A stretch of DNA of 64,000 nucleotides from Undibacterium hunanense (GTDB taxonomy: Bacteria > Pseudomonadota > Gammaproteobacteria > Burkholderiales > Burkholderiaceae_D): assembly GCF_014284335.1 (NCBI RefSeq), contig NZ_JACOGF010000002.1:266659-330658 (forward strand). The letters are read 5' to 3'. Position 1 is the first letter of the stretch. Every line of letters starts with the position of its first letter. The position numbers and the translations under genes are program-made. This document shows, piece by piece, positions 9,231-20,718 of the stretch. Below the pieces are notes generated by a model. It was not told where the DNA came from and did not search any database. It was given only the letters and a program-made list of their open reading frames with translations.

Positions 9231-10055
9231 TTATTTTTTCGCCAAGCTTCCCATTACGGTATCACGCAGCAGGCGGTCCAGAACAGAAAAATCCATATCT
9301 TCGGTAGCATGCTGCTTCACGTTTTCTAGCCTGCCCAATTCGGTTTCAATAAAGCGGTTGATGACAGGCATGGCCGGTGCCAGTTCTGATTCTTTGGCAC
9401 GTCGCTTGATGACCAGTAGTTCAGCGATGGCTGCCTTCAACACCTCATCACTGATCAGTGCATCCACCAGGTCCTGGAAGCGCATCGGTACTGTACCGAG
9501 GTTTTTCTCTATCCATAAACTGGCCAGTAGCGGGCGCAGTACATACAGGTATTTTTTCAGCTTGACGATGTCGCCACTCAAATGCTCGCGGTAGTTTTTT
9601 GCCGCCATGTGCAGGTAATGATAGTAAGAGCGCTCTGGCCGGTGCACTTGCCTGGTTGCTGCTTGTATTGCCTGTAGAAACACCGCATCGGCCGCATACA
9701 CCACAGGTGACGACAGCCATTCGATCAGGGTTGCATTACCCATGCGCAGCAGGCCCAGTGCCTTGCGTACATCCCAGCCGCTGACATCATAAATTTCATT
9801 GACCGGTAATTCGATGACATCGCGACCGGGCACCACTGTCAGATACCAGTCTGGCCGGTTCACGTAGATAAAACGCACATCATAATCACTGTCAGGCGAG
9901 GCAAAGCCCCAGCCACGACTGCCTGATTCACAGGCAAACAAGACCCTGACATCATGCGTCTGTTCTATGCGTTGCAAGGTGGCATTGATTTCTGTGCGTA
10001 TCGCAGGGTCTATCGGGTGTTCCTGTTCTTCAAATGCCAAATGATCGTCATGCAT
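9231..10055 (-). CDS. RlaP-type nucleotidyltransferase (pol-beta superfamily)
   Basis: The 274-residue protein matches the Pfam RlaP family (RNA-ligase-associated pol-beta-like nucleotidyltransferases; YcgL-type). The signature is ACESGSRGWGFASPDSDYDV at about residues 41-60, with GS at 45-46 and the metal-binding D57/D59, followed by RFIYV and a helical C-terminal domain. Members are predicted to add a nucleotide to RNA or protein; the exact reaction is unproven. ATG 10055 is chosen for GAGGA eight bases upstream; an alternative start at 10178 would reach toward the divergent lipoprotein gene. A bona fide RNA ligase lies 4 kb away on the same strand, which fits the family's name and context. 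Confidence 0.88.
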   Translation of the reverse strand: MHDDHLAFEEQEHPIDPAIRTEINATLQRIEQTHDVRVLFACESGSRGWGFASPDSDYDVRFIYVNRPDWYLTVVPGRDVIELPVNEIYDVSGWDVRKALGLLRMGNATLIEWLSSPVVYAADAVFLQAIQAATRQVHRPERSYYHYLHMAAKNYREHLSGDIVKLKKYLYVLRPLLASLWIEKNLGTVPMRFQDLVDALISDEVLKAAIAELLVIKRRAKESELAPAMPVINRFIETELGRLENVKQHATEDMDFSVLDRLLRDTVMGSLAKK

Positions 10056-10221
10056 GTCAAAATCCTCTATTGTTTTTTGCAGCCTGCCTGAATGGCTGCT
10101 TTGTTGAAAATCATACCTTCCTGCGCAGATAATTTGTAAGAAAATGCAATTCGCATTGTCTGCCTGCCGGATCAGCACTAGGCTGGAAGCCCACTTGCCT
10201 CATGCCGGAAGTAAAACCACC

Positions 10222-11610
10222 ATGCGATGCACTACAGTTCAAGGACTATCCGTCATTACACTCATGCTTGCGCTGACAGCCTGCGGCGGTGGTTCTGGCA
10301 ATACCAGTAGTGGTGCGAGCGGCAGTACCACGGGTACGAGCGGCGGCGGCAGCAATACGGGTAACACGGGTTCTACAGGCACCACCACTGCCACAGCACC
10401 AGTAATCAACAGCTTTGTCGCCACTGCTGCCAGCATCACTTCAGGACAAAGTACACAATTGAGCTGGAATATCAGTGGTGCCACCAGTGTCACCGTCAAT
10501 GGTTCCGCCGTGACGGGCAACAGCCTTACTGTCAGTCCAGTCGCCACCACAAGCTATACCCTGCTTGCCAGCAACTCCGCTTGTAGCACCACATGCAATA
10601 CATCTGCCTCGGTCACCGTTACCGTCAATACAGCAGGCACTGGCAGCACTGGTGGTGGCACAAATGGTGGCACAACGGCTAACGCCATTTATGGCGACTT
10701 GCGCAAGGCTGATTTGGGTGCAGGGGCCAATCTGAACGGGGCTGTGCCTTTTCCGGCAAATAATGCCTGGAACATGGATATTTCGGGTGCCGCAGTTGAC
10801 CCGGCATCCGATGCGCTGATCAACAGCATAGGTCTGGGCACCAGTCTTCATCCCGACTTTGGTTCTGGCCTGTACGATGGTGCACCCATAGGCATACCCT
10901 ATGTGGTAGTTGCCAGCAGCCAGCCCAAGGTGGTCGTGCAATTTACCGACTATGGTGATGAGAGTGACCCTGGCCCTTACCCCATACCTGCCAATGCACC
11001 GATAGAAGGGCAGCAGGCCAGTGGTATCACTTTTGGCGGTGATCGCCACGTTCTGGTCATAGACCGTGACGCCAATCGCCTGTATGAAGTGGGTAATGCC
11101 TATCCACAAACAGGTGGCAGCTGGAAAGTCAGTGGCGGTGCCATCTTTGATCTGACATCCAACACGGTAAGGCCAGGCGGCAAACCAGGCTGGACCAGCG
11201 CCGATGCTGCCGGTCTGCCCATCTTCCCCGGCCTGGTGCGTTATGAAGAAGCCGCCAGCGGTGCGATACGCCATGCCCTGCGCTTTACCGTCAGCCGCAG
11301 TCGTCGTGCCTATGTGCCACCGGCTACCCACTGGGCTTCATCGAATACCAGCAACACCTTGCCACCGATGGGCATGCGGGTACGCCTGAAAGCCAGTTTC
11401 CAGATACCGGCCAATTTCTCAAACGAGAGCAAGGCCATTCTGCAAGCCATGAAAACCTATGGCATGCTGGTGGCTGACAATGGTTCCAACTGGTACATCA
11501 GCGGCGCACCAGATGCCCGCTGGAATAATGAAAAACTGGTGTCCGAACTGGGCAGTGTCAAAGGTAGCAATTTTGAAGTTGTGAGAATGGATGGACTGGT
11601 GACGCCCTAG
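10222..11610 (+). CDS. Secreted lipoprotein with Ig-like domain, unknown function
   Basis: This 462-residue protein starts with a lipoprotein signal (LALTAC, Cys21) and a low-complexity Gly/Ser/Thr linker. An Ig-like/PKD-type domain follows (about 60-125: APVINSFVATAASITSGQ, then WNISGATSVTVNG). A second Gly/Thr linker precedes a ~280-residue globular C-terminal domain with motifs NNAWNMDISGA, TFGGDRHVLVIDRDANRLYE and GLVRYEEAASGAIRHALRF. I recognise that domain as a conserved secreted type but not its function. The stop codon TAG is formed by the first bases of the inserted family A element at 11608, so the natural C-terminus may have been longer. Confidence 0.85.
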   Translation: MRCTTVQGLSVITLMLALTACGGGSGNTSSGASGSTTGTSGGGSNTGNTGSTGTTTATAPVINSFVATAASITSGQSTQLSWNISGATSVTVNGSAVTGNSLTVSPVATTSYTLLASNSACSTTCNTSASVTVTVNTAGTGSTGGGTNGGTTANAIYGDLRKADLGAGANLNGAVPFPANNAWNMDISGAAVDPASDALINSIGLGTSLHPDFGSGLYDGAPIGIPYVVVASSQPKVVVQFTDYGDESDPGPYPIPANAPIEGQQASGITFGGDRHVLVIDRDANRLYEVGNAYPQTGGSWKVSGGAIFDLTSNTVRPGGKPGWTSADAAGLPIFPGLVRYEEAASGAIRHALRFTVSRSRRAYVPPATHWASSNTSNTLPPMGMRVRLKASFQIPANFSNESKAILQAMKTYGMLVADNGSNWYISGAPDARWNNEKLVSELGSVKGSNFEVVRMDGLVTP

Positions 11611-11778
11611 TGGACTGTAACAGTTAAAACAGAAGTGAAAGACGTTTGCCCGGCGATCAGGGCAAGACAAGGTTAACACTTGGGCAGAGCGATAGTGGAC
11701 TATCGCGAGCATTTGCAACGCAGCCATGGTCGTCGCGCAAGCGGAAGGCACTCTGTTTTCAGCTGTTACAGTCCACTA
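11608..11778 (+). mobile_element. TA-flanked MITE, family A, copy 1
   Basis: This 171-bp element begins TAGTGGACTGTAACAGTT and ends with the inverted sequence AGCTGTTACAGTCCACTA. The terminal repeats are about 20 bp with TA at both edges, consistent with a TA target duplication as seen for Tc1/IS630-type transposition. The interior contains GCGATAGTGGACTATCGC (palindromic) and no gene. A second copy lies inverted at 15596-15756. Each terminus reads TAG inward, supplying the stop codon of both flanking convergent genes. Confidence 0.9.
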
Positions 11779-13194
11779 GTATTCACTGACGACAATTTTT
11801 TCAAGCGAAACGGCGTATCCGGCACTGCCGGATACGATTTTTTTCTTGCTTGTCCAACTCCAGTGTTCCCTTAAAACAGAGACGGTCAATGTATAGCTGT
11901 CTTTGGGAATAATCGGGCTCATGAACTTCAGCGCAGACACCGGGTATTTACTGTACATATCGATGATGGATGACAATACAGTTTCGCCTTTGCTGTTACG
12001 CATACTCACCCGGGCATAACCGCCATCGGGGGTCGCAAGGCTATATAAACTGATTTGTCGACCGGTAAATGACACAGAGAAAGCTGCATCCTTTACATCT
12101 GATCTGCTTTGTGCAAATGGCGTCGTTTCATGTTGCCATGCGCCGGTGTAAGTAATGCTGTCATCCGTATTCTTGATAAACCGTCTTCCATTCGCGACAG
12201 GCACAGTGACGCCGGTCGCGGCATTGATTTGCCATGCTTCCTGATATAGAGGAATGGAAACGGATATGTCGTCGATAGTCAGCGGTTGCCAGACATAGGT
12301 AGCAGCAGATGCCTGTCTGGGGTAAGACCAGCGATCACCCATGAACATATAGGTAGTGCCTTGTTGTCCTTCAATCGGTAACACAAAAGTGACTTGCGAA
12401 TTCCAGGTCAGTGTACCTTCCGGCGCGATGAAACCCCTGCGCGTCCACGGCCCCTTTAGTGAGGTGGCAGTGAAATAATAATTGTCATTGCGTTCCCAGC
12501 CGGTAAGGTCCGAACCAAAAAAATAATAGATATCGTTTTTCCTGAACAGGGCAGGGGATTCAAAACCTGACGTCATGGCATGATTGACCTGCTCACTGAC
12601 ACCGGTATAGTCGTCTGTCAGTTTGTAAATATCACCCCCGTGCAGCAGCACGTATCCGGCACCATCCTTATCCTGAAAGGTGCCCATATCCCATTTCTTG
12701 ATAGGCTTGCCCTGATATAGCAAAGGTCCGTGGTAGGTATAATGGCCGGTAATGTTCTTTGACGTGGCATAACCGACAAACTGGCTTTTGTAGTCAAGCG
12801 CATCAACGTGCATAAACATGACATATTCACCCGTGGCGGGTGACTTCATGACTTTCGGACGTTCTCCCACCGTATCCGGGCCCAAATCGCCGCTGGCCTG
12901 AACCGGCAGGGCAATGCTCTCGAATGTCCAGTTGTACAAATCTTTCGATGAATAACAATTGAAACCGGCAAACGCATTGCCCGCATCCGTGTGTGCTTCA
13001 CCAAACAGGTAATAGGTATCTTTATCCCTGATGATGCTGGCACCGTGGGCACTGACGACCTGCCCGCGGTTGTCAAACCAGGGGATACCCGAATGAATCG
13101 CCTTGTAGCTGACCGGTATTTGCGCGACTGAAAGATGCGAAATGACCATCAGGATGATGAATAATGGCCAGTCGCTGATCAGTGTGCGTTTCAT
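11776..13194 (-). CDS. Glycoside hydrolase family 43-like exported enzyme
   Basis: The 472-residue protein has a signal peptide (ending near SVAQ) and a five-bladed beta-propeller-type GH43 domain: AHGASIIRDKDTYYLFGEAH, WDMGTFQDKDGAGYVLLHGG, and GFESPALFRKNDIYYFFGSD carrying the probable general-acid Glu. The C-terminal ~140 residues look like a carbohydrate-binding module. The arrangement is closest to exo-beta-1,3-galactanase-like GH43 enzymes, which would release sugars from plant arabinogalactan; the specificity is inferred. It starts 16 bp after the nucleotidyltransferase stop on the same strand, so it is probably in one transcript with the RNA-repair genes. Its stop TAG coincides with the MITE terminus. 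Confidence 0.9.
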   Translation of the reverse strand: MKRTLISDWPLFIILMVISHLSVAQIPVSYKAIHSGIPWFDNRGQVVSAHGASIIRDKDTYYLFGEAHTDAGNAFAGFNCYSSKDLYNWTFESIALPVQASGDLGPDTVGERPKVMKSPATGEYVMFMHVDALDYKSQFVGYATSKNITGHYTYHGPLLYQGKPIKKWDMGTFQDKDGAGYVLLHGGDIYKLTDDYTGVSEQVNHAMTSGFESPALFRKNDIYYFFGSDLTGWERNDNYYFTATSLKGPWTRRGFIAPEGTLTWNSQVTFVLPIEGQQGTTYMFMGDRWSYPRQASAATYVWQPLTIDDISVSIPLYQEAWQINAATGVTVPVANGRRFIKNTDDSITYTGAWQHETTPFAQSRSDVKDAAFSVSFTGRQISLYSLATPDGGYARVSMRNSKGETVLSSIIDMYSKYPVSALKFMSPIIPKDSYTLTVSVLREHWSWTSKKKIVSGSAGYAVSLEKIVVSEY

Positions 13195-13210
13195 TTTTCC
13201 AGACGTAAAA

Positions 13211-14260
13211 TCAGGATTGCGCAGCCGCTTCCTGCAAAAACCTGGCCTTGATGGCTTCAGGGCTGGCTTCTATAAAAAAGTTTTCAAAACTGGTTTCATT
13301 GGCAAATGAATTGCGTACACGTGCCATCAGTTCGCCCAGTTCCTTGCCGGACAAGCCGGTAATCTCAGCAGCCAGGCCACCATTGAATTGGCGCTTCACC
13401 AGCTTTTTGCGGGCATAGTCTGCCAGGGCATCGTGATAGGCTAGCCTGAAATCGGGGAACTGCGCAAACGTTGTATCGAGAAATTCATTTTTCTGATTGT
13501 TGCGCTCTGTCGTGCCAGCTTCGGCCCACGGGTAGGCTGGTAATTCCACCTCATCCTGTTCGTCCAGCCAGGTCAGAAAGGCATTGTAGGTCGCTCTTTT
13601 GGCATCCCGTATGCGGGCTTTGTGATTTCTGTTATCGAGCAGGTAAATTTCGCGGTTGGCATAGGGTGATGCCACGACATAACGGAAGATGTCATTCAGG
13701 GTTCTGAACTGCCCATTGGTGCGCATGGTTTCGTAAAGCGCGGCATCGTAACCAATCAGACTCAGGGCTTCACCAAAATTCGTCGTAATGCAAACTTCGG
13801 CAATCATGTGGCTGCTGTTATCCGGATCGCGTAGTGGGTACAGCAAGCCAAGATGCCCGAACTTGGCACCAAACTTGTGGGCAATGCGGCCCACCAGATT
13901 ACCAAAGTCGTTCAAGCCAAAGTAACGCGAAGCAAAATCAAATGATGCTGGTGCTGTTCGTATCAAGTCAACCTGGAACACACCTTCGGCTATCGCCAGA
14001 CCCATGCTGGTGACATCGCCATTAAAGACCACTTCGGTCGCCTGCAATGCCTGCGCCAGTTGCGCAGCATCATAGTCCTGGCCAGCTTCGACCAGGATGT
14101 CCAGATCACCAAAATCTGTCTTATTGGCATACGCAATGACGGCTTCAATACGGCGTTGTGGAAAACACCGTTGCAATGTTGTCACTGCATGCCGTTCCAC
14201 TTCACGGTATCTTGATGCGGGCAATCGAACCGATTCAGCCTGTAGTGCATTTCCGCCCAT
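13211..14260 (-). CDS. Nucleotidyltransferase-like protein paired with RNA ligase
   Basis: The 349-residue protein carries a pol-beta nucleotidyltransferase core near the N-terminus: AYANKTDFGDLDILV with metal-binding D52 and D54, and a third carboxylate D98 in FQVDLIR. The remaining ~230 residues are helical with conserved-looking segments (NDFGNLVGRIAHKFGAKFG, NGQFRTLNDIFRYV). It starts 9 bp after the RNA ligase stop with AAGGA upstream, so the two are one operon. By context it should act on RNA ends, for example adding nucleotides before ligation. This is inference; related proteins have, to my knowledge, no assigned reaction. Confidence 0.85.
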   Translation of the reverse strand: MGGNALQAESVRLPASRYREVERHAVTTLQRCFPQRRIEAVIAYANKTDFGDLDILVEAGQDYDAAQLAQALQATEVVFNGDVTSMGLAIAEGVFQVDLIRTAPASFDFASRYFGLNDFGNLVGRIAHKFGAKFGHLGLLYPLRDPDNSSHMIAEVCITTNFGEALSLIGYDAALYETMRTNGQFRTLNDIFRYVVASPYANREIYLLDNRNHKARIRDAKRATYNAFLTWLDEQDEVELPAYPWAEAGTTERNNQKNEFLDTTFAQFPDFRLAYHDALADYARKKLVKRQFNGGLAAEITGLSGKELGELMARVRNSFANETSFENFFIEASPEAIKARFLQEAAAQS

Positions 14261-14269
14261 GACATTTCC

Positions 14270-15298
14270 TTATCTGTCGCCATGCTTTAACAAATAGCTG
14301 TTTGAAATTGCCTTGAATGACATGCTGCCGTCCAGACGCTTGAATACCACACCTTCTCTCAAAGTTGCCGGATTCAGGGAGCCACCTTCGGCATACTCCA
14401 GCACCCTGGCCACATCTGCTTGAAAGCGCTCCAGTGTCGTATTTTCCAGCCATGGTACCTCATTGACACTGGCACCCAGTGCGCGCAGATCAGCCACAAC
14501 TTGCTGGCGTTCTGCCCTGCCCAGATATTGACGGGTATCGCTGTTGAACACGTCAAACAGATAAAATTCCTGACCGCGCAGTTTTTCTGGATTACCCTGA
14601 ATGCCTTCGCCTATGATTTCGCCTTGCAAGGCAAGATTGCGACCATATGCCGTCAGTGCAGTCAGTAGCTTATTTTGCTTTGCCACCTTCCACAGGCTGT
14701 TGCTTTCTGATTCCCTGATCCACCAGTTTCTACCGCAGACACCAGATACATTGTCGTGATGGAAGACCGTCATGCTGGAACCATCCAGTTTGATGGTGAC
14801 TTCAAATTCCGTTTTTGCATCCGTGCTCAGTACTTCCGTCAGATTCTGGATACGTTCCTGATCGGTCTTGCTGATGAAATCCGGAAAGGGGCCTTCCACT
14901 TCACCAGACAGTGAGGCAGGTATGGCAGGTTCCCATTTTTCAATGCCAAGCAATGCACCAAGATCAACGTCTCCGGCTACAGCATGTGCAGTCAGTTCCG
15001 AAAATTCACCCAAAGGCAGAATCAGACCCTGTGACAATTGGCCACGCAATCTGATGGTACGCAACCGCACACCAACTTTATCGTTCCAGTTGATCTTGTT
15101 CTTTTCCAGAAAAGTAAAACGTGCGTCGCTTAAAGGCAAAAAGGAATCAATCTCGAAATATACGCAGGCATCGCCAACCTGAAATTCATTTTTCTTGACC
15201 ACGACAGACCAGCCATCCACGCTTGCGCATTCAATGGCATCTGCGCCGGGGATGGGTCTGATGTTGCTGACTTGTCTGATGGTGACTAATTTTCTCAT
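14270..15298 (-). CDS. RNA ligase, Rnl5/DraRnl type
   Basis: This is an ATP-dependent 3'-OH/5'-phosphate RNA ligase of 342 residues, the same length as Deinococcus radiodurans DraRnl. An N-terminal OB-like domain (1-100) is followed by the adenylyltransferase domain. Motif I is K170-L-D-G with the nucleophilic lysine; motif III is FYLFDVF near 245; motif IV EGVVFK at 315-320; motif V SFKAISNSYLLK near 327-338. All key ligase residues are intact. ATG 15298 has AAGGA upstream; the open frame continues upstream through a tRNA gene and a MITE, which is spurious. It lies 125 bp downstream of tRNA-Met in the same direction and heads the ligase-nucleotidyltransferase-GH43 gene string. Its likely job is sealing nicked RNA, plausibly cleaved tRNA. 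Confidence 0.94.
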   Translation of the reverse strand: MRKLVTIRQVSNIRPIPGADAIECASVDGWSVVVKKNEFQVGDACVYFEIDSFLPLSDARFTFLEKNKINWNDKVGVRLRTIRLRGQLSQGLILPLGEFSELTAHAVAGDVDLGALLGIEKWEPAIPASLSGEVEGPFPDFISKTDQERIQNLTEVLSTDAKTEFEVTIKLDGSSMTVFHHDNVSGVCGRNWWIRESESNSLWKVAKQNKLLTALTAYGRNLALQGEIIGEGIQGNPEKLRGQEFYLFDVFNSDTRQYLGRAERQQVVADLRALGASVNEVPWLENTTLERFQADVARVLEYAEGGSLNPATLREGVVFKRLDGSMSFKAISNSYLLKHGDR

Positions 15299-15333
15299 TG
15301 GAATTTCCTTGTTATTTTTATGGTTGCCGCTAT

Positions 15334-15346
15334 CGCGCAGTGCGCG
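15334..15346. promoter_or_regulatory. Palindrome in the RNA ligase leader
   Basis: CGCGCAGTGCGCG is a 13-base palindrome (odd centre) located 36-48 bp upstream of the RNA ligase ATG. It could be an operator or a small leader hairpin. No regulator is assigned. Confidence 0.3.
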
Positions 15347-15422
15347 AAAAAATGTTGATTGTATGTGATTAGGTGTATAGCTGGATAAAAAACGGGGATG
15401 GGAAGTATGGATTTTGTTGTCG

Positions 15423-15498
15423 TGGTCGAGATTGCCGGATTTGAACCAGCGACCGCTCGCATATGAAGCGAATGCTCTACCAACTGAGCTAAATCTCG
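15423..15498 (-). tRNA. tRNA-Met (CAU)
   Basis: The 76-nt cloverleaf has acceptor CGAGATT/AATCTCG, D-stem GCTC/GAGC, anticodon stem TTCGC/GCGAG with loop TTCATAT, T-arm GCTGG/CCGGC with loop TTCAAAT, discriminator A and encoded CCA. The anticodon is CAU. A lysidine-modified tRNA-Ile2 cannot be excluded from sequence. It is the last member of the tRNA array before the RNA ligase gene. Confidence 0.92.
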
Positions 15499-15577
15499 AT
15501 TTGTATCGATTGAAAAGGAGGGGATGATCGCCACGAATCAGCAATGCCGAAACGGGTCTGTGTGTGGCGATCAAAGA

Positions 15578-15812
15578 TGGTGCGTCAGGCAGGGTTAGTG
15601 GACTGTAACAGTTGAAAACAGAGTGCCTTCCGCTTGCGCGACGACCATGGCTGCGTTGCAAATGCTCGCGATAGTTCACTATCGCTCTGCTTTGCGTCTT
15701 GCCCTGATCGCCGGGCAAGCGTCTTTCACTTCTGTTTCAACTATTACAGTCCACTAGAACCCGCAACAGTCGGTGTAGAAGACCGGGGCTCTATCCTTTG
15801 AGTTACTAACGT
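15578..15812 (-). pseudogene. tRNA-Arg (UCU) split by a MITE
   Basis: The 5' part (15812 down to 15757) reads ACGTTAG TA ACTC..GAGC, anticodon stem CCGGT/ACCGA with loop CTTCTAC, then GCGGGTTC. It stops at the element edge TA. The 3' part (15595 to 15578) reads ACCCTGCCTGACGC, discriminator A and CCA. Removing 15596-15756 and one TA restores an exact 76-nt cloverleaf with T-stem GCGGG/CCTGC and acceptor ACGTTAG/CTGACGC (one A-C mismatch at the first pair). The insertion is in the T-loop, so the gene should be dead. Confidence 0.85.
15596..15756 (-). mobile_element. TA-flanked MITE, family A, copy 2
   Basis: This 161-bp copy is nearly identical, in inverted orientation, to the element at 11608-11778. 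It has the same ~20-bp terminal inverted repeats and TA edges; the main difference is a shorter segment near the middle. It interrupts a tRNA-Arg gene, which gives direct evidence of insertion with TA duplication. Confidence 0.92.
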
Positions 15813-15816
15813 AATA

Positions 15817-15827
15817 TGGCGGAAGCG
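15817..15827 (-). repeat. Candidate attachment-site remnant (tRNA-Ser 3' end)
   Basis: On the minus strand these bases read CGCTTCCGCCA, matching 10 of 11 bases of the 3' end of the tRNA-Ser(UGA) gene (CGCTTCCTCCA) at 18152-18162. The two copies bracket the island that begins with an integrase remnant next to tRNA-Ser. The repeat is short, so this rests mainly on position. Confidence 0.45.
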
Positions 15828-16031
15828 ATGTCAGTAATATCTCCCTATGAAAAATACGCGGATTTTTCATTTACCCATCTTTGCGCCCACCTGCTTCAAA
15901 AATGTATGATTTAATTTAAAAATTAAAATCAATTTCATTTAAAACAACTGGGAATTCAACTTCCGCTTACGCCCCGTTGCGGAAGTTCGCATTATTGGGC
16001 TACGCTCGTATAGCTTTCGCAGGTCGGTACA

Positions 16032-17222
16032 TCAAGAACTCGGAGTTGATCCGAGCACACCAATAATTTTGGCGATCTGCCCATTCAACTGATCTTTCGC
16101 ACCTTTGATAGTGCAAAGCTTCCCAGTTTTGTACTCGTCTACTAGTGTTCGCCCATATCGCTGGAGCATCATCACGTCTGACGGAGTAACCTTCGATTTC
16201 ATAAAACCACCGGGGAAAGCTTTCTTGAAGTGCCAATGATTGTTTGTCACGAACGAAAGAAATTCCATGAGATATTCCTCAGTAAAAATAACATCAGGCT
16301 CCAGGTTGGCAAACTTTGAAAGCATCGATTCGTATTCTGCGGGCTCCTTAACTAGATGTTCATACACCCATGAGTAGTACTCATCTGCAGCTTGGTGGAT
16401 ACGGCCTCTATTCCGGTCTACCCGTACTCCAAAGTTCAGAGGTTCAATTCTGTCTTCCCACCAGCCTGAAAAAAGCGAAGGATAAAGGTCCAGTTCAAGT
16501 AGCGTATTTACATTGTTATGCTCAGCTCTCACTACGGTAAATTTCTTGTCGAACTGTAGCCCCTTATTACGGGCGAACGAAATACACACGTGATCCAGGA
16601 GAGACTCCGAGAAGCTTGATGTGACATTGTAAACATCAATGACTTCATGCACGTTTTTTTCATTGAATTTGAAATCCGCCTTGTAGAACCACCGCCTAGT
16701 TACCCCGAGACATTCGGCAAATGCACAATGTTCAAGGTCCATGAAGGCAAGACTCGAAAAAGTCAACAAATTATCAAAAATGTCTGCCGTATTTTTAAAC
16801 GCCAAGTCAGGCGCGTATGAAGCGGGTTCTCGATGATTGCCGTGACCCAACTTAAGTTTGTAGTCAGTATTGGAATAAACTCTGAAGAGCCCGGTAACAA
16901 GAGACTCCGCAGGAAATATCAATTTTTGGTGGGCGCTCACGTTCCGAAGGTACTTGAGCATCTCGTAGTCTTTCCGATGCACCTCCCTGAACTCAGTGAC
17001 GGAAGCATTGAGCCAACTTGGTGAGTTTTTTATCGAATTCTCGACAAAGAATAAAAGGCTACGTAGAAGATTGTTAAGGCTAAGTATGAAGTGTTTCGGT
17101 TGGTGATAGGCCGAATCCAACAAACGTTTATTCTCGTGAACGATCTCGATGTTTTGCACCACCTCCGGATGCTCTGCGTCCATTCGCTCAAAAAAAAGCG
17201 AGGACCGTGCCAAATCAAACAT
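16032..17222 (-). CDS. Island protein of unknown function, possible HEPN motif
   Basis: The 396-residue protein has no recognised full-length family. Around residues 88-96 it contains YLRNVSAHQ, an R-x4-H motif within a helical context, as in HEPN-fold ribonucleases. The rest is mostly helical with aromatic-rich patches. It has AAGGA seven bases upstream of the ATG. It is the last gene of a three-gene string in the AT-richer island between tRNA genes, which suggests horizontal transfer. A ribonuclease role would suit an island next to tRNA and RNA-repair genes, but a single short motif is weak evidence. Confidence 0.7.
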   Translation of the reverse strand: MFDLARSSLFFERMDAEHPEVVQNIEIVHENKRLLDSAYHQPKHFILSLNNLLRSLLFFVENSIKNSPSWLNASVTEFREVHRKDYEMLKYLRNVSAHQKLIFPAESLVTGLFRVYSNTDYKLKLGHGNHREPASYAPDLAFKNTADIFDNLLTFSSLAFMDLEHCAFAECLGVTRRWFYKADFKFNEKNVHEVIDVYNVTSSFSESLLDHVCISFARNKGLQFDKKFTVVRAEHNNVNTLLELDLYPSLFSGWWEDRIEPLNFGVRVDRNRGRIHQAADEYYSWVYEHLVKEPAEYESMLSKFANLEPDVIFTEEYLMEFLSFVTNNHWHFKKAFPGGFMKSKVTPSDVMMLQRYGRTLVDEYKTGKLCTIKGAKDQLNGQIAKIIGVLGSTPSS

Positions 17223-17248
17223 ATATATCCTTCGCTTTCAAATCGTTA

Positions 17249-17590
17249 CTACCGCAGTGGCTCTGCATCAAAGACTCGCAACTGAAGTGAAACCCATTTT
17301 CGAAACTCAATGGGAGAAATAGGGTTTTCAACTTGCACCATTTCAGGCCACACTCGAAGTGACATGATCTCCCACTCTTGAGCAATCTTTAATATTCTTG
17401 CGTCAACTATGTCAATTTTAACAGCTTCACTTAGCTTTATAGATGCACCACAAACGTGAGAAAAGTGAACCTCATCCGCAAGGTACGAGTGAGCCAAGTC
17501 GATAAGAGTTTTCAGTTCTGGCAGGCGGCGCGATTGAGAATATTTCATAGTTATTGACACGTTGTAAATTTTTTCGAAGTCGCTGCCCAT
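17249..17590 (-). CDS. Island hypothetical protein, 113 aa
   Basis: This soluble 113-residue protein of no recognised family lies 26 bp upstream of the 396-residue island gene on the same strand. Its composition (mixed alpha/beta, central HVCGASIKLSEAVKIDIVD) resembles small accessory or immunity proteins only in a general sense. No strong ribosome site precedes the ATG. Its base composition matches the island rather than the flanking chromosome. Confidence 0.6.
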   Translation of the reverse strand: MGSDFEKIYNVSITMKYSQSRRLPELKTLIDLAHSYLADEVHFSHVCGASIKLSEAVKIDIVDARILKIAQEWEIMSLRVWPEMVQVENPISPIEFRKWVSLQLRVFDAEPLR

Positions 17591-17623
17591 TTTTTTTGAA
17601 CGACCGCAGTTGGCCGGTTACTG

Positions 17624-17890
17624 TCAATCGCCAAGTTCGTGACCGCTAGTGTAAGACAGACCTCCAACAAGTCCAACTCCTAAGATCAAAAGCGATGCCA
17701 TACCTTTGCTGGGAGCAAATGCGATTATCTGAAATCCGAAATTGTTAGCATAGAGGTCTGGAGTCGGATTCGCTTGTAACTCATCCATCGTACTAGACAC
17801 ATCTACCCAACCGTAAATCAACACCACAGACAGCCATACAAAGAAAATGACAAGTAAAATCAATTTTCGCTGTATTTTAAAGTTACTCAC
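17624..17890 (-). CDS. Small two-helix membrane protein of the island
   Basis: The 88-residue product (GTG start proposed at 17890) has hydrophobic helices at about 10-27 (ILLVIFFVWLSVVLIYGW) and 62-80, with a periplasmic loop between. An ATG 57 bp upstream (17947) would extend it through the integrase remnant and seems artificial. I do not recognise the family. It is the first gene after the integrase remnant. Confidence 0.55.
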   Translation of the reverse strand: MSNFKIQRKLILLVIFFVWLSVVLIYGWVDVSSTMDELQANPTPDLYANNFGFQIIAFAPSKGMASLLILGVGLVGGLSYTSGHELGD

Positions 17891-18011
17891 TGTCGCTTTT
17901 GGAACCGCCAACGGCAATTCCCAGCCACAGCCCGCCGCCGTCGCCATACAGGCCGCTTAGTTCGAGGCTACAAACGGACAGAGCAGAGAGCTGATTGATC
18001 CGGGAGACCAT
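17883..18011 (-). pseudogene. Truncated tyrosine integrase (N-terminal remnant)
   Basis: From the ATG at 18011 the frame encodes VSRINQLSALSV then GLYGDGGGLWLGI and AVGGSKS, which closely follows the DUF4102 N-terminal arm domain of prophage/island integrases (pattern LsalaV...GlyaDGgGLyL.v...GaKsW). It stops after 42 residues with no catalytic domain, breaking off right after GSKS. The remnant starts about 140 bp from the 3' end of tRNA-Ser and reads away from it, the usual place for an integrase of a tRNA-targeted island. Confidence 0.75.
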
Positions 18012-18151
18012 GGATTTATCCACCTTTCTTCCCACCTTTGATAGCAGGATGGTAGTGTATTTTGCTGGACAGCTGCACACGTCGGATTTGCGATTTCTCC
18101 TAAGAGAAGGCGAAAAACAAACCCCATCGCAGGGGCTTGTCTTCGGGTACT

Positions 18152-18240
18152 TGGAGGAAGCGGTGAGATTCGAACTCACGGGTCCGTTATGGACCTCCTG
18201 TTTTCAAGACAGGTGCAATGAACCGCTCTGCCACGCTTCC
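18152..18240 (-). tRNA. tRNA-Ser (UGA)
   Basis: An 89-nt class II tRNA with acceptor GGAAGCG/CGCTTCC, anticodon loop CTTGAAA (anticodon TGA), a long variable arm (GGTCCATAACGGACC-like stem) and encoded CCA. It is the last of 14 tandem tRNA genes on this strand and the probable target of the adjacent island. Confidence 0.93.
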
Positions 18241-18245
18241 ATGAT

Positions 18246-18321
18246 TGGTGCCGGTTGCAGGATTTGAACCCACGACCCACTGATTACAAATCAGTTGCTC
18301 TACCAACTGAGCTAAACCGGC
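18246..18321 (-). tRNA. tRNA-Thr (UGU)
   Basis: Complete cloverleaf: acceptor GCCGGTT/AACCGGC, anticodon stem ACTGA/TCAGT with loop TTTGTAA (TGT), T-loop TTCAAAT, discriminator A, CCA encoded. Confidence 0.94.
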
Positions 18322-18327
18322 AAAAAC

Positions 18328-18402
18328 TGGCGCCCTATAGCGGAATCGAACCGCTGGCACTTCGCTGGACAGGCGAATACTCTACCATTGAGTTAATAGG
18401 GC
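18328..18402 (-). tRNA. tRNA-Asp-like (GUC), atypical
   Basis: Acceptor GCCCTAT/ATAGGGC, D-stem ACTC/GAGT, anticodon stem TTCGC/GCGAA with loop CTGTCCA, T-arm AGCGG/CCGCT, discriminator G and CCA. The anticodon reads GTC and G73 fits Asp identity. Position 37 is C, where a purine is nearly universal, and the sequence is unlike ordinary proteobacterial tRNA-Asp. Confidence 0.75.
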
Positions 18403-18408
18403 GAAAAT

Positions 18409-18496
18409 TGGCGGAAGATGTGCGATTCGAACGCACATGGGCCTGAGGAGCCCGCCGGGTTAGCAACCCGGTGCAATACCATTATGCGAATCTTCC
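18409..18496 (-). tRNA. tRNA-Ser (GCU)
   Basis: An 88-nt class II tRNA: acceptor GGAAGAT/ATCTTCC, anticodon stem CCGGG/CCCGG with loop TTGCTAA (GCT), long variable arm, T-loop TTCGAAT, discriminator G, CCA encoded. Confidence 0.93.
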
Positions 18497-18577
18497 TTTA
18501 TTAAAAAAATTATCGTGTATGTGCATTCCACATCCTGCTGGTGAGGTAGCAGTGATCTGTTGATCACACGATAAAAC

Positions 18578-18653
18578 TGGACCCGCCTGCAGGGATCGAA
18601 CCTGCGACCTCAACATTCGTATTGTTGCGCTCTTCCAGCTGAGCTAAGGCGAG
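18578..18653 (-). tRNA. tRNA-Arg (ACG)
   Basis: Acceptor CTCGCCT/AGGCGGG (one T-G pair), anticodon stem CAACA/TGTTG with loop ATACGAA (ACG, inosine-34 expected), T-loop TTCGATC, CCA encoded. The discriminator is T, unusual for Arg. The gap of about 80 bp to tRNA-Ser(GCU) is the largest between array members except the one upstream of tRNA-Lys/Asn. Confidence 0.88.
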
Positions 18654-18659
18654 AAATAG

Positions 18660-18735
18660 TGGCATCCCAGACAGGACTTGAACCTGTAACCTTCGGTTTT
18701 GGAGACCGCGACTCTTCCAATTGAGCTACTGAGAT
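18660..18735 (-). tRNA. tRNA-Trp (CCA)
   Basis: Acceptor ATCTCAG/CTGGGAT, anticodon stem GCGGT/ACCGA with loop CTCCAAA (CCA), T-loop TTCAAGT, discriminator G, CCA encoded. Confidence 0.92.
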
Positions 18736-18789
18736 AAATGGGACTGACGAAAAAATGCGTAAAGATTTTTTCGTCAGTTCTGTTGACGT

Positions 18790-18866
18790 TGGTACTTGCA
18801 GATGGAATTGAACCACCAGCCTCTGCCTTATCAAGGCAGCGCTCTGACCAATTGAGCTATACAAGT
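18790..18866 (-). tRNA. tRNA-Ile (GAU)
   Basis: Acceptor ACTTGTA/TGCAAGT, anticodon stem CTGCC/GGCAG with loop TTGATAA (GAT), T-loop TTCAATT, discriminator A, CCA encoded. It stands outside any rRNA operon, where tRNA-Ile(GAU) is normally found. Confidence 0.92.
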
Positions 18867-18875
18867 AAAAAATCA

Positions 18876-18950
18876 TGGTGTCCCTTGCTGGCTTTGAACC
18901 AGCGACCGACCGGTTATGAGCCGGTTGCTCTACCCCTGAGCTAAAGGAAC
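18876..18950 (-). tRNA. tRNA-Met (CAU)
   Basis: Acceptor GTTCCTT/AAGGGAC, anticodon stem ACCGG/CCGGT with loop CTCATAA (CAT), T-loop TTCAAAG, discriminator A, CCA encoded. It could be elongator Met or a lysidine-modified Ile2. It differs from the other CAU tRNA at 15423. Confidence 0.9.
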
Positions 18951-18968
18951 GCGTTAAAGTGGAAAGAA

Positions 18969-19044
18969 TGGCTCCTCGACCTGGATTCGAACCAGGGACA
19001 TGCGTATTAACAGTACGCCACTCTGCCTGCTGAGTTATCGAGGA
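18969..19044 (-). tRNA. tRNA-Asn (GUU)
   Basis: Acceptor TCCTCGA/TCGAGGA, anticodon stem GCGTA/TACGC with loop CTGTTAA (GTT), T-loop TTCGAAT, discriminator G, CCA encoded. Confidence 0.94.
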
Positions 19045-19111
19045 ATTGAAAATTGGGGGGCTTGTACAAAACACCGGTTAAAACGATTGCGCTTTAATCG
19101 AAATTCTGTGG

Positions 19112-19185
19112 TGGTCGAGATAGAGAGAATTGAACTCTCGCCGTTCGGTTAAAAGCCGAATGCTCTACCTTTGAGCTACATCCTG
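19112..19185 (-). tRNA. tRNA-Lys (UUU), weak acceptor stem
   Basis: Anticodon stem TTCGG/CCGAA with loop CTTTTAA (TTT), D-stem GCTC/GAGC, T-arm GAGAG/CTCTC, discriminator A, CCA encoded. The acceptor pairs CAGGATG with TATCTCG, giving an A-C mismatch at pair 2 and G-T pairs at 3 and 7. Confidence 0.85.
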
Positions 19186-19265
19186 CGTGATTTTATGGTT
19201 TGGCATCTTGCGATGCATGGTCTTTCGTTTCATGTGATGCTCCGGTAATTGCGTTGTTAAAAAAT

Positions 19266-19341
19266 TGGTGGAAGTGGTCGGAATCGAACCGACGACATTC
19301 TGCGTGCAAAGCAGGCGCTCTCCCAACTGAGCTACACCCCC
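19266..19341 (-). tRNA. tRNA-Ala (UGC)
   Basis: Acceptor GGGGGTG/CACTTCC (two G-T pairs), anticodon stem CCTGC/GCAGA with loop TTTGCAC (TGC), T-loop TTCGATT, discriminator A, CCA encoded. The G3-T70 pair that defines Ala identity is present. Confidence 0.93.
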
Positions 19342-19367
19342 GTATTGGTTTTTTGTTTCATAAATTA

Positions 19368-19444
19368 TGGTCGGAGTACGAGGATTTGAACCTCGGACCT
19401 TCTGCTCCCAAAGCAGTTGCGCTCCCGGGCTGCGCCATACTCCG
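19368..19444 (-). tRNA. tRNA-Pro (UGG)
   Basis: Acceptor CGGAGTA/TACTCCG, anticodon loop TTTGGGA (TGG) on stem ACTGC/GCAGA with an A-A mismatch at the outer pair, T-loop TTCAAAT, discriminator A, CCA encoded. Confidence 0.92.
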
Positions 19445-19473
19445 ATTGATTAACTTTTCTTGCTTAGTGATGC

Positions 19474-19549
19474 TGGTGCGTCCCCGTGGTAACGATCCAC
19501 GCTCCCCGATTTTTCAGACCGGTGCTTTCACCTGTTTAGCTTGAGACAC
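19474..19549 (-). tRNA. tRNA-Phe (GAA), atypical T-loop
   Basis: Acceptor GTGTCTC/GGGACGC, short D-stem GCT/AGC, anticodon stem CCGGT/ATCGG with loop CTGAAAA (GAA), T-stem CGTGG/CCACG with loop ATCGTTA, discriminator A, CCA encoded. The usual T54-A58 pair appears as A54-T58, and position 8 is A instead of T. All stems still form. Confidence 0.8.
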
Positions 19550-19554
19550 AATGA

Positions 19555-19629
19555 TGGAGTCCTTGAGTGGAATCGAACCGCCATTCGCTGATAGAAAGTC
19601 AGCTGTCCTGACCTTTAGACGACAAAGAC
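19555..19629 (-). tRNA. tRNA-Glu (UUC)
   Basis: Acceptor GTCTTTG/CAAGGAC, D-stem GTCT/GGAC, anticodon stem GCTGA/TCAGC with loop CTTTCTA (TTC), T-loop TTCGATT on a stem with one C-A mismatch, CCA encoded; discriminator T. It is the first gene of the array in the direction of transcription. Confidence 0.87.
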
Positions 19630-19780: not shown

Positions 19781-19885
19781 CTTGAATAATACTTCCCGAA
19801 TTGTTAAAGAATTTCCATGGGCCGGTGTTGTCCGGTCACGACCGCTTGCACGGGTTTGACTGCTGTGATCTGCGTTGTGCGGATC

Positions 19886-19969: not shown

Positions 19970-20221
19970 TTAGCTTGCTCCGGTGACCTTAAGGGTTGCC
20001 CCTCGTATGCCTGTTTGTATGAACCATGTATCTTGCAGATTCATGGGGTTGACATCATTGAACATTTCACTATCGGCGTGTTCTGGTGATGTGAAGAATG
20101 GAATCGTATTGCGGGCAGCCTTCTTCGCCGCGGCTTTGCTGGCCTTGGCCGATGCCCGGGCTTGCGCATTGAAGCGCAGGCTTGGTATCAGTTGTTGGAG
20201 CAAAGTTGTTTTCACGATCAT
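19970..20221 (-). CDS. Small basic hypothetical protein, 83 aa
   Basis: The likely product starts MIVKTTLLQQLIPSLRFNAQ and has a basic Ala/Lys-rich stretch (ARASAKASKAAAKKAARN) followed by a hydrophilic C-terminal half. I do not recognise a family. The ATG at 20221 is chosen over upstream extensions because AGGA directly precedes it, though the spacing is short. The strong terminator after the stop and a divergent HTH gene 190 bp away support a real transcription unit. A secreted or precursor peptide role is possible but unsupported. Confidence 0.55.
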   Translation of the reverse strand: MIVKTTLLQQLIPSLRFNAQARASAKASKAAAKKAARNTIPFFTSPEHADSEMFNDVNPMNLQDTWFIQTGIRGATLKVTGAS

Positions 20222-20412
20222 TCCTAAAATAGTGTTTGTTAATGCGAGTGCTAGTGGGTATTGCTTAGTCGATGGATGTATCTTGCCACAGGTTTTTGAA
20301 TAAAACAAGCATGGCATGACGAAATTAATGAAATATTTGATGTGTTTTTGCGACAGGTGCAATATTTCTTCGTTTATTGCTATGATGCGCGCCTTCGAAG
20401 TGAGGTTCGGAC

Positions 20413-20718
20413 ATGCATACCATATCAACAGTTTTACCTGAAATAGCCCTTGGCCAACAACGTATCAGGGTCGTATTGCGACTACGCGAATTAATGGCGG
20501 AACACAAAATTCGTTCGGTCTCTGCGCTGCATCGCATACTGATCAGCAAGAAGGTCACCGTATCGCATTCACAGCTATTGCGCATCGTCGATAACAAGGC
20601 AGACCACTGGAAGGTGGAATTTCTGTCTGCCTTTATTGAGGTGTTTCAATGTAGTGAAAGCGAGCTGTTCAAGATTGAACGTTATGTGGAAACAGACGAG
20701 ATTGCTGCTGGCGCCTGA
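20413..20718 (+). CDS. HTH (XRE/Cro-type) transcriptional regulator
   Basis: The 101-residue protein is a short Cro/CI-like DNA-binding protein: helices RIRVVLRLRELMAEHKI, SVSALHRIL, then VSHSQLLRIVDNKA as a recognition-helix region, followed by LSAFIEVFQCSESELFKI, the typical fifth helix. There is no effector domain. GAGG seven bases before the ATG supports the start. It is divergent from the 83-aa gene, which it might control. Confidence 0.82.
   Translation: MHTISTVLPEIALGQQRIRVVLRLRELMAEHKIRSVSALHRILISKKVTVSHSQLLRIVDNKADHWKVEFLSAFIEVFQCSESELFKIERYVETDEIAAGA

Follow-up and report, generated by a model that had tools for sequence, protein, structure and literature searches.

A redundant tRNA array beside an Rnl5-type RNA ligase and a Pol-beta-type nucleotidyltransferase at a shared chromosomal locus in Undibacterium

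A 64,000-nucleotide stretch of the Undibacterium hunanense genome (contig NZ_JACOGF010000002.1, positions 266,659 to 330,658; hereafter the window) carries on its minus strand a dense array of tRNA genes, followed by the genes of an Rnl5-type ATP-dependent RNA ligase and of a nucleotidyltransferase with a Pol-beta-type fold. This arrangement, termed an operon here on the presumption that its genes are co-transcribed, was found at one chromosomal locus, with the same neighbours, in 6/6 Undibacterium species bearing the ligase. Judged by their sequences, the array tRNAs are a redundant and divergent second set, and the balance tips slightly towards a resident chromosomal tRNA back-up and repair operon directed against tRNA-cleaving toxins. 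A previous sequence-only reading had described fourteen minus-strand tRNAs, an island, a broken tRNA-Arg, a tRNA-Met, an intact Rnl5 ligase and a Pol-beta-like nucleotidyltransferase, all of which were borne out by ARAGORN and Rfam and by profile and structure matches.

The linkage was examined within the genus. The ligase was detected in six of 43 Undibacterium genomes, and the nucleotidyltransferase in the same six. Each of them has 15–19 same-strand tRNA genes upstream, the last one 86–193 bp from the ligase, and the gap between the ligase and nucleotidyltransferase genes is 7–9 nt across the six. The surroundings are shared as well: RlaP, a luciferase-like monooxygenase and a sigma-factor gene in 6/6, and an alpha-2-macroglobulin gene in 5/6, the sixth stretch ending inside the sigma gene. 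Chance neighbours are ruled out by the 6/6 linkage, and the association, found also in 2/8 plasmids and in 9/26 dereplicated viral loci (at least five tRNAs), is not coincidental. The idea of a transferable cassette, also part of the sequence-only reading, found no support: the site and neighbours are the same in 6/6 species, and no integrase or relaxase could be recognised in a scan of 20 neighbouring proteins. An empty site was not found in other species, the flanking alpha-2-macroglobulin gene being unmatched at an E value of 1e-50 in the seven genomes tried.

The ligase scored 222.1 bits against TIGR02306 (curated cutoff 151.15) and combines an N-terminal OB domain with a nucleotidyltransferase domain, which assigns it to the Rnl5/DRB0094 family; a relative of known structure is the RNA ligase of Naegleria gruberi (PDB 5cot, E 9.2e-114). 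Its putative activity, by kinship, is the sealing of RNA ends with a 3'-OH and a 5'-phosphate. For the nucleotidyltransferase, the AlphaFold model (pLDDT, predicted local distance difference test, of 93.7) and PDB matches to Pol X, beta and lambda indicated a Pol-beta-type fold. An identity as RlaP had no support in sequence: no Pfam family, PF10127 included, matched it at E values up to 5; BLASTP gave no meaningful match between it and the window's own RlaP. Its viral kin are named DNA polymerase-like or left unnamed, and CCA-adding enzymes were absent among the 50 matches listed, which settles nothing. Both proteins are under purifying selection where intact, with pairwise omega (NG86) of 0.068–0.114 for the ligase (10 pairs from five genomes, TS12 left out) and 0.084–0.177 for the nucleotidyltransferase (15 pairs). 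The coordinates of all these features are collected in Table 1.

Table 1. Features of the tRNA array locus in the window (all on the minus strand, in order of decreasing coordinate)
Feature	Position	Strand	Basis or details
Array leader	19792..19853	(-)	predicted hairpins 19853-19842 and 19840-19816, then boxA-type element about 19812-19792
tRNA array, 14 genes	18152..19629	(-)	ARAGORN + Rfam
Island, array to last tRNAs	15830..18150	(-)	terminator-like hairpin 18134-18122; ORFs of 107, 113 and 396 aa
Island protein, 396 aa	16032-17222	(-)	
tRNA-Arg(TCT), 5' part	15757..15812	(-)	read from sequence
MITE-like repeat interrupting tRNA-Arg(TCT)	15597..15756	(-)	90% identity to 11608-11777
tRNA-Arg(TCT), 3' part	15578..15595	(-)	read from sequence
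tRNA with CAT anticodon (tRNA-Met by ARAGORN)	15423..15498	(-)	ARAGORN + Rfam
Rnl5-type ATP-dependent RNA ligase, 342 aa	14270..15298	(-)	TIGR02306, PF21189, PF09414
Pol-beta-fold nucleotidyltransferase, 349 aa, 9 nt past ligase stop	13211..14260	(-)	phrog_24943
RlaP (RNA repair pathway DNA polymerase beta family), possible accessory part	9231..10178	(-)	PF10127, 298.3 bits vs cutoff 23
aa, amino acids; MITE, miniature inverted-repeat transposable element; ORF, open reading frame.

As transcribed, the array reads Glu(TTC), Phe(GAA), Pro(TGG), Ala(TGC), Lys(TTT), Asn(GTT), CAT, Ile(GAT), Trp(CCA), Arg(ACG), Ser(GCT), Asp(GTC), Thr(TGT) and Ser(TGA). These 14 genes are packed in 1.5 kb, and all their anticodons are present elsewhere in the genome, so that the array has the density, the many isotypes and the redundancy of a tRNA array unit. 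At least 74 tRNA hits, 15 of them inside the window, were obtained in the window genome (6.28 Mb, 108 contigs), a lower bound since 150 of 214 candidates were scored. Every array anticodon was also found among the 59 tRNAs outside the array by running ARAGORN on their stretches. The array thus duplicates chromosomal tRNAs, as had been proposed, and an ordinary rRNA-linked or housekeeping cluster, which the sequence-only reading had already doubted, is ruled out. Identity to the same-anticodon host tRNA was 58–83%, except for Pro with 94%; therefore, the array did not arise by recent duplication, Pro perhaps excepted. CCA is encoded in 96 of 97 genes across the six arrays, and the gene order is mostly kept among relatives, with gene gain and loss. 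Depending on the species, an array serves 13–17 amino acids; jointly they cover 18, without Val and Cys.

The stems of the array tRNAs are under structural constraint, upheld by paired changes. For the 16 tRNA types occurring in five or six arrays, 1806 of 1848 stem cells were in standard pairs. Among the 83 cells off the commonest pair, 39 were one-sided with pairing kept, 35 two-sided with pairing kept and 9 broken, these cells being non-independent events since the species are related. One-sided changes that keep pairing (39/47) were far above 1/6 or even 1/2. Array tRNAs also evolve faster: between genomes G252 and G000, identity was 94% for array tRNAs (14 compared) and 98% for chromosomal ones (20 distinct, 13 identical), the latter drawn from the top 30 of 88 hits by score and biased to canonical tRNAs. 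Outside the anticodon, the anticodon loop differs from that of the host in 8/15 array tRNAs, each compared with one same-anticodon host tRNA. The array tRNA-Asp has a pyrimidine at position 37 in 6/6 arrays and the array tRNA-Glu has T37 in 3/5, with G or A in the rest; T37 was also found in 2/7 viral or plasmid Asp tRNAs. By analogy with phage tRNAs, for which loop mutations near known cleavage sites are argued as evasion in the portion of PMC10264068 available, it is hypothesised that the changed loops might escape tRNases.

Upstream of the array, a GCTCTTTAACAATTTGGGAAG-like block with two possible hairpins is found 80–180 nt ahead of the first tRNA in 6/6 genomes. The leader is conserved, with 60 of 107 columns invariant in the alignment of the six genomes, and its hairpins are near-invariant, so covariation speaks neither for nor against them. 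The rrn leader and the rrn spacer of the window genome itself, with rRNA identity checked, contain GTTCTTTAACAATT, whose core CTTTAACAA is common to the array leader. By analogy with rrn operons, we take this element to be a boxA, presumably acting in antitermination. Among the host tRNA stretches scanned (L002–L066), the leader motif was found at the array and the rrn spacer only. The core CTTTAACAA gave six occurrences in five of 57 viral and plasmid ligase loci, all five without tRNAs, and therefore the leader is not common to viral arrays. A short conserved ORF (19970-20428, minus strand), followed by a hairpin and a T-run, lies just ahead of the leader, and a similar ORF was found in all six loci.

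Further features lie between the array and the ligase in the window genome. The tRNA-Arg(TCT) is interrupted by a MITE-like repeat with copies, some partial, in 13 places of this genome. ARAGORN calls a whole orthologue in the relative G252, and the tRNA is interrupted at the same T-arm position by a related repeat in 4/5 species having it. The island ORFs were without match at the same locus in the other five genomes, and terminator-like sites in the region are at chance level (8 observed, 7.7 expected). In the window genome, the island after the fourteenth tRNA may leave most of the array uncoupled from the ligase. Its 396-aa protein belongs to a family of 90 sequences, the window's own included, scattered in proteobacteria, with R93-x4-H98 invariant (87/87 each). 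The predicted model shows an N-terminal helical bundle, and a fold search gave no match above noise. HEPN RNases combine the HEPN fold with an R-x4-6-H motif, which the R-x4-H of the island protein recalls at the sequence level. Downstream of the nucleotidyltransferase and before the MITE, a gene for a GH43-family glycosyl hydrolase (11776-13194, minus strand) is present in the window genome; the other five genomes lack it at this locus. RlaP is encoded at the same locus in 6/6 array genomes, and a relative (43–60% identity) was found in 8/37 genus genomes without the array. Its gene overlaps a divergent 488-aa ORF (10144-11610, plus strand); both were matched at this locus in the six array genomes, the ORF being in two pieces in G270. 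This ORF gave a partial virion-protein match (E 1.2e-08, 115 residues). A prophage remnant was rejected, as apart from this match no phage structural or integration gene was recognised among the neighbours scanned.

Beyond Undibacterium, few genomes have the ligase. It was found in 7/245 genomes of the family (E 1e-10), two of them Undibacterium, in 3/399 of the order (1e-20), one being the window's own, and in 1/369 of the class (1e-60), again the window's own. No array was near the ligase in the stretches fetched from the seven non-Undibacterium bacterial genomes (five from the family, two from the order), so the linkage expected in other genomes held inside Undibacterium and failed in these seven. 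Two tRNA-Ser(CGA) genes lie nearby in three of the five family loci; the remaining two loci have no tRNA, as is the case for both order loci and for two deltaproteobacterial ligase loci. In the order sample, the nucleotidyltransferase was found at 1e-40 in one genome besides the window's own, with the ligase on a different contig and no tRNA near either. On the loci examined, Undibacterium alone has the ligase, the nucleotidyltransferase and the array side by side. Both proteins (P0017, P0136) may also be encoded on a single metagenomic contig of 95,993 bases.

By sequence, the parts belong to families that also occur on phages and plasmids. The ligase was found on 55 viral contigs; 46 loci were of at least 10 kb, of which 22 had at least one tRNA and 17 at least five. 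After dereplication at 90%, 12/26 had at least one tRNA and 9/26 at least five. The nucleotidyltransferase gave 74 viral loci, 59 after the same filter, with at least one tRNA in 20 and at least five in 3. These loci served as control, a GyrB-based control giving one locus only, and the difference for at least five tRNAs (9/26 vs. 3/59) had a Fisher p of 0.0008, the two sets differing otherwise too. The ligase is also encoded within 8/74 viral nucleotidyltransferase loci, with 481 bp between them in L236, and in L203 the nucleotidyltransferase is separated by 40 bp from one of 13 grouped tRNAs. No match to the window nucleotidyltransferase or to RlaP was obtained in the 55 viral ligase loci. 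Ligase matches were obtained in 39 plasmid records. The two arrays among the eight plasmids examined are those of Curtobacterium pS16 (L180), with 37 tRNAs and a predicted transfer-messenger RNA around an Rnl5 ligase, and of Bifidobacterium pMP7017, with 18 tRNAs around the ligase. In pS16, an RtcB gene lies about 12 kb downstream. Phage BcepSaruman has no tRNA array within 12 kb of its ligase. The nucleotidyltransferase family was found on 62 plasmid records, mostly from Xanthomonas and Pseudomonas, and on 27 phage records; six such loci (plasmids L129, L130, L131 and L134 and two phages) have neither tRNAs nor ligase near.

In an 89-row ligase tree, the six Undibacterium ligases form one clade (100/97) within a set otherwise of 14 bacterial rows and one plasmid row. 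Array-linked viral ligases are spread over several further branches; L077, with six tRNAs, comes closest. An origin from any of the viral arrays sampled is disfavoured because the ligase groups with bacterial ligases, and also because the array tRNAs are mostly no closer to same-anticodon viral or plasmid tRNAs (253 distinct tRNAs compared) than to host ones. The exception is Trp, with 91% identity to L082 vs. 76% to the host.

A working model is proposed for a back-up and repair operon. The leader with its boxA-type element would probably carry RNA polymerase through the long untranslated tRNA array, and the transcript, presumably induced under stress, would yield spare tRNAs for the 13–17 amino acids. 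Since array tRNA bodies and some anticodon loops are unlike those of the host, toxins recognising host tRNAs might miss some of them. The same transcript would then encode the ligase and the nucleotidyltransferase; the latter would refill lost nucleotides, after which the former would rejoin cleaved tRNAs with 3'-OH and 5'-phosphate ends. PIN/VapC-type cleavage leaves such ends, and this damage would be the most likely target because no end-healing enzyme was recognised nearby, whereas other damage would need healing in trans. According to passages of PMC7824862, a 5'-phosphate and a 3'-OH are required by ATP-grasp RNA ligases, and the predicted role of RlaP-type enzymes is to restore lost nucleotides. 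The nucleotidyltransferase, though of another family, may by analogy do the same. Given the end requirement, many anticodon-nuclease products would be unsealable without help.

Several observations weigh against this model. The system is present in just 6/43 genus genomes, in TS12 the reading frame of the ligase is broken into two overlapping pieces with stops while its 19 tRNAs are kept, and the island parts 14 tRNAs from the ligase in the window genome. Neither an RNA kinase or RNA-end phosphatase nor a linked polynucleotide kinase/phosphatase as in T4-type repair was recognised among the 20 proteins (467-29534) scanned with Pfam, the rest of the genome not being searched for one. At E up to 0.1, PADLOC gave no convincing defence family and nothing beyond weak hits for the ligase (E 0.0055) and RlaP (E 0.023), by which a known defence family is ruled out. 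A sigma-70-like promoter was looked for at the leader and not found, and the boxA core was in no viral array locus among the 57 viral and plasmid ligase loci. As for the tRNAs, 7/15 share the host's anticodon loop, and the pyrimidine at 37 could signal poor decoders. T37 of array Glu was found in 0/10 viral or plasmid Glu tRNAs, and A32 of array Arg(ACG), present in 6/6 arrays, in 0/7 viral or plasmid counterparts.

Other explanations account for part of the data. The array could be an rrn-like growth-rate booster, providing extra tRNAs for fast translation with the ligase as a linked passenger, which would fit the rrn-type boxA core, the nearly universal encoded CCA and anticodons already present in the genome. 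This is considered unlikely: at mostly 58–83% identity to host isoacceptors the array tRNAs are no copies, some of their loops are non-canonical, and ligase and nucleotidyltransferase are adjacent in 6/6 genomes, under purifying selection where intact. A similarly low probability is given to an anti-defence module left over from a phage or plasmid, slowly decaying and with no present role. The gain and loss of array genes, the tRNA-Arg split in four species, the broken TS12 ligase, the island in the window genome and the occurrence of related parts in phages and plasmids all agree with this view, but omega values of 0.07–0.18 for both proteins, the compensatory stem changes and the conserved leader do not, and no phage structural or integration gene was recognised with confidence among the neighbours scanned.

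Mobility would explain the patchy distribution (6/43 in the genus; 3/399 order-sample genomes for the ligase) and the Rnl5 arrays on plasmids elsewhere. However, the same locus and neighbours in 6/6, the single clade of Undibacterium ligases (100/97) and the lack of a recognised integrase in the proteins scanned make a tRNA-supply and repair cassette moving among genomes quite improbable. Least credible of all, and given very little weight, is a role of the tRNAs in a non-translational pathway, as decoys or as charged-tRNA donors, with the ligase and nucleotidyltransferase maturing them. The pyrimidine-37 loops in Asp and some Glu and the small conserved ORF directly upstream could be read in that way, but the cloverleaves are complete with encoded CCA, and no tRNA-dependent amino-acid transferase was recognised among the proteins scanned. 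The tRNA back-up and repair reading is preferred. A more specific version, held tentatively and at somewhat less than even chance, is that a phage or plasmid strategy of spare tRNAs plus ligation was domesticated on the chromosome as self-protection, with a near-complete second set, rrn-type antitermination, and Rnl5 together with a Pol-beta family lacking a Pfam model; the tRNAs would have been reshaped in the body, and partly in the loop, to escape tRNases, and cleaved tRNAs would be refilled and sealed.

To our knowledge, the biological role of Rnl5 ligases is open, and an Rnl5 gene conserved beside many candidate substrates in an environmental bacterium gives a handle on what Rnl5 is for. 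The locus also bears on whether bacteria, beyond phages, keep spare tRNAs against tRNA-cleaving weapons.

The arrangement is real and akin to tRNA-array and RNA-repair systems already described. In the literature searched, which leaves most subscription journals outside, titles, abstract openings and passages described neither this operon nor an Rnl5 gene in cis with a tRNA array on a chromosome. The ligases of Deinococcus radiodurans (DRB0094) and Naegleria gruberi belong to the same family (TIGR02306), but the Deinococcus gene, unlike that of Undibacterium, has no tRNA genes within 12 kb. In phage T4, tRNAs are repaired by Rnl1 and Pnkp. Phage systems likewise combine tRNA genes, ATP-grasp RNA ligases and nucleotidyltransferases, as described in parts of PMC7824862 and PMC10879173: jumbo phages carry RlaP and ligases (PMC7824862), and 54.5% of theta-ribozyme phages have a DRB0094 ligase (PMC10879173). 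Excerpts of PMC9025141 and PMC10910872 record, respectively, clustered tRNAs together with an RNA ligase in a phage, and tRNA arrays adjoining other nucleic-acid enzymes. The Undibacterium system differs from these in its location on a bacterial chromosome, at a locus common to six species, with no end-healing enzyme recognised nearby and a ligase apart from the main viral Rnl5-array branch. In Anabaena PCC 7120, the trn operon is likewise a bacterial second tRNA set, there of 26 genes, which is induced by translational stress and aids survival under it; the targets of its repressor TrcR include the RNA ligase RtcB (PMC10272220, in part). That operon, however, is on a megaplasmid, with RtcB elsewhere and TrcR as repressor, whereas Undibacterium has Rnl5 in cis and a boxA-like leader before the array. 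Mycobacterial tRNA array units, including those of M. avium linear plasmids, are likewise dense, redundant and divergent sets apart from the housekeeping genes, and an anti-defence role has been proposed for them in the sections available of PMC5966550 and PMC12803027. The term RNA ligase occurs 0 times in the main text of these two papers, while in six Undibacterium species the array lies on the chromosome and is linked to genes for an Rnl5 ligase and a Pol-beta nucleotidyltransferase.

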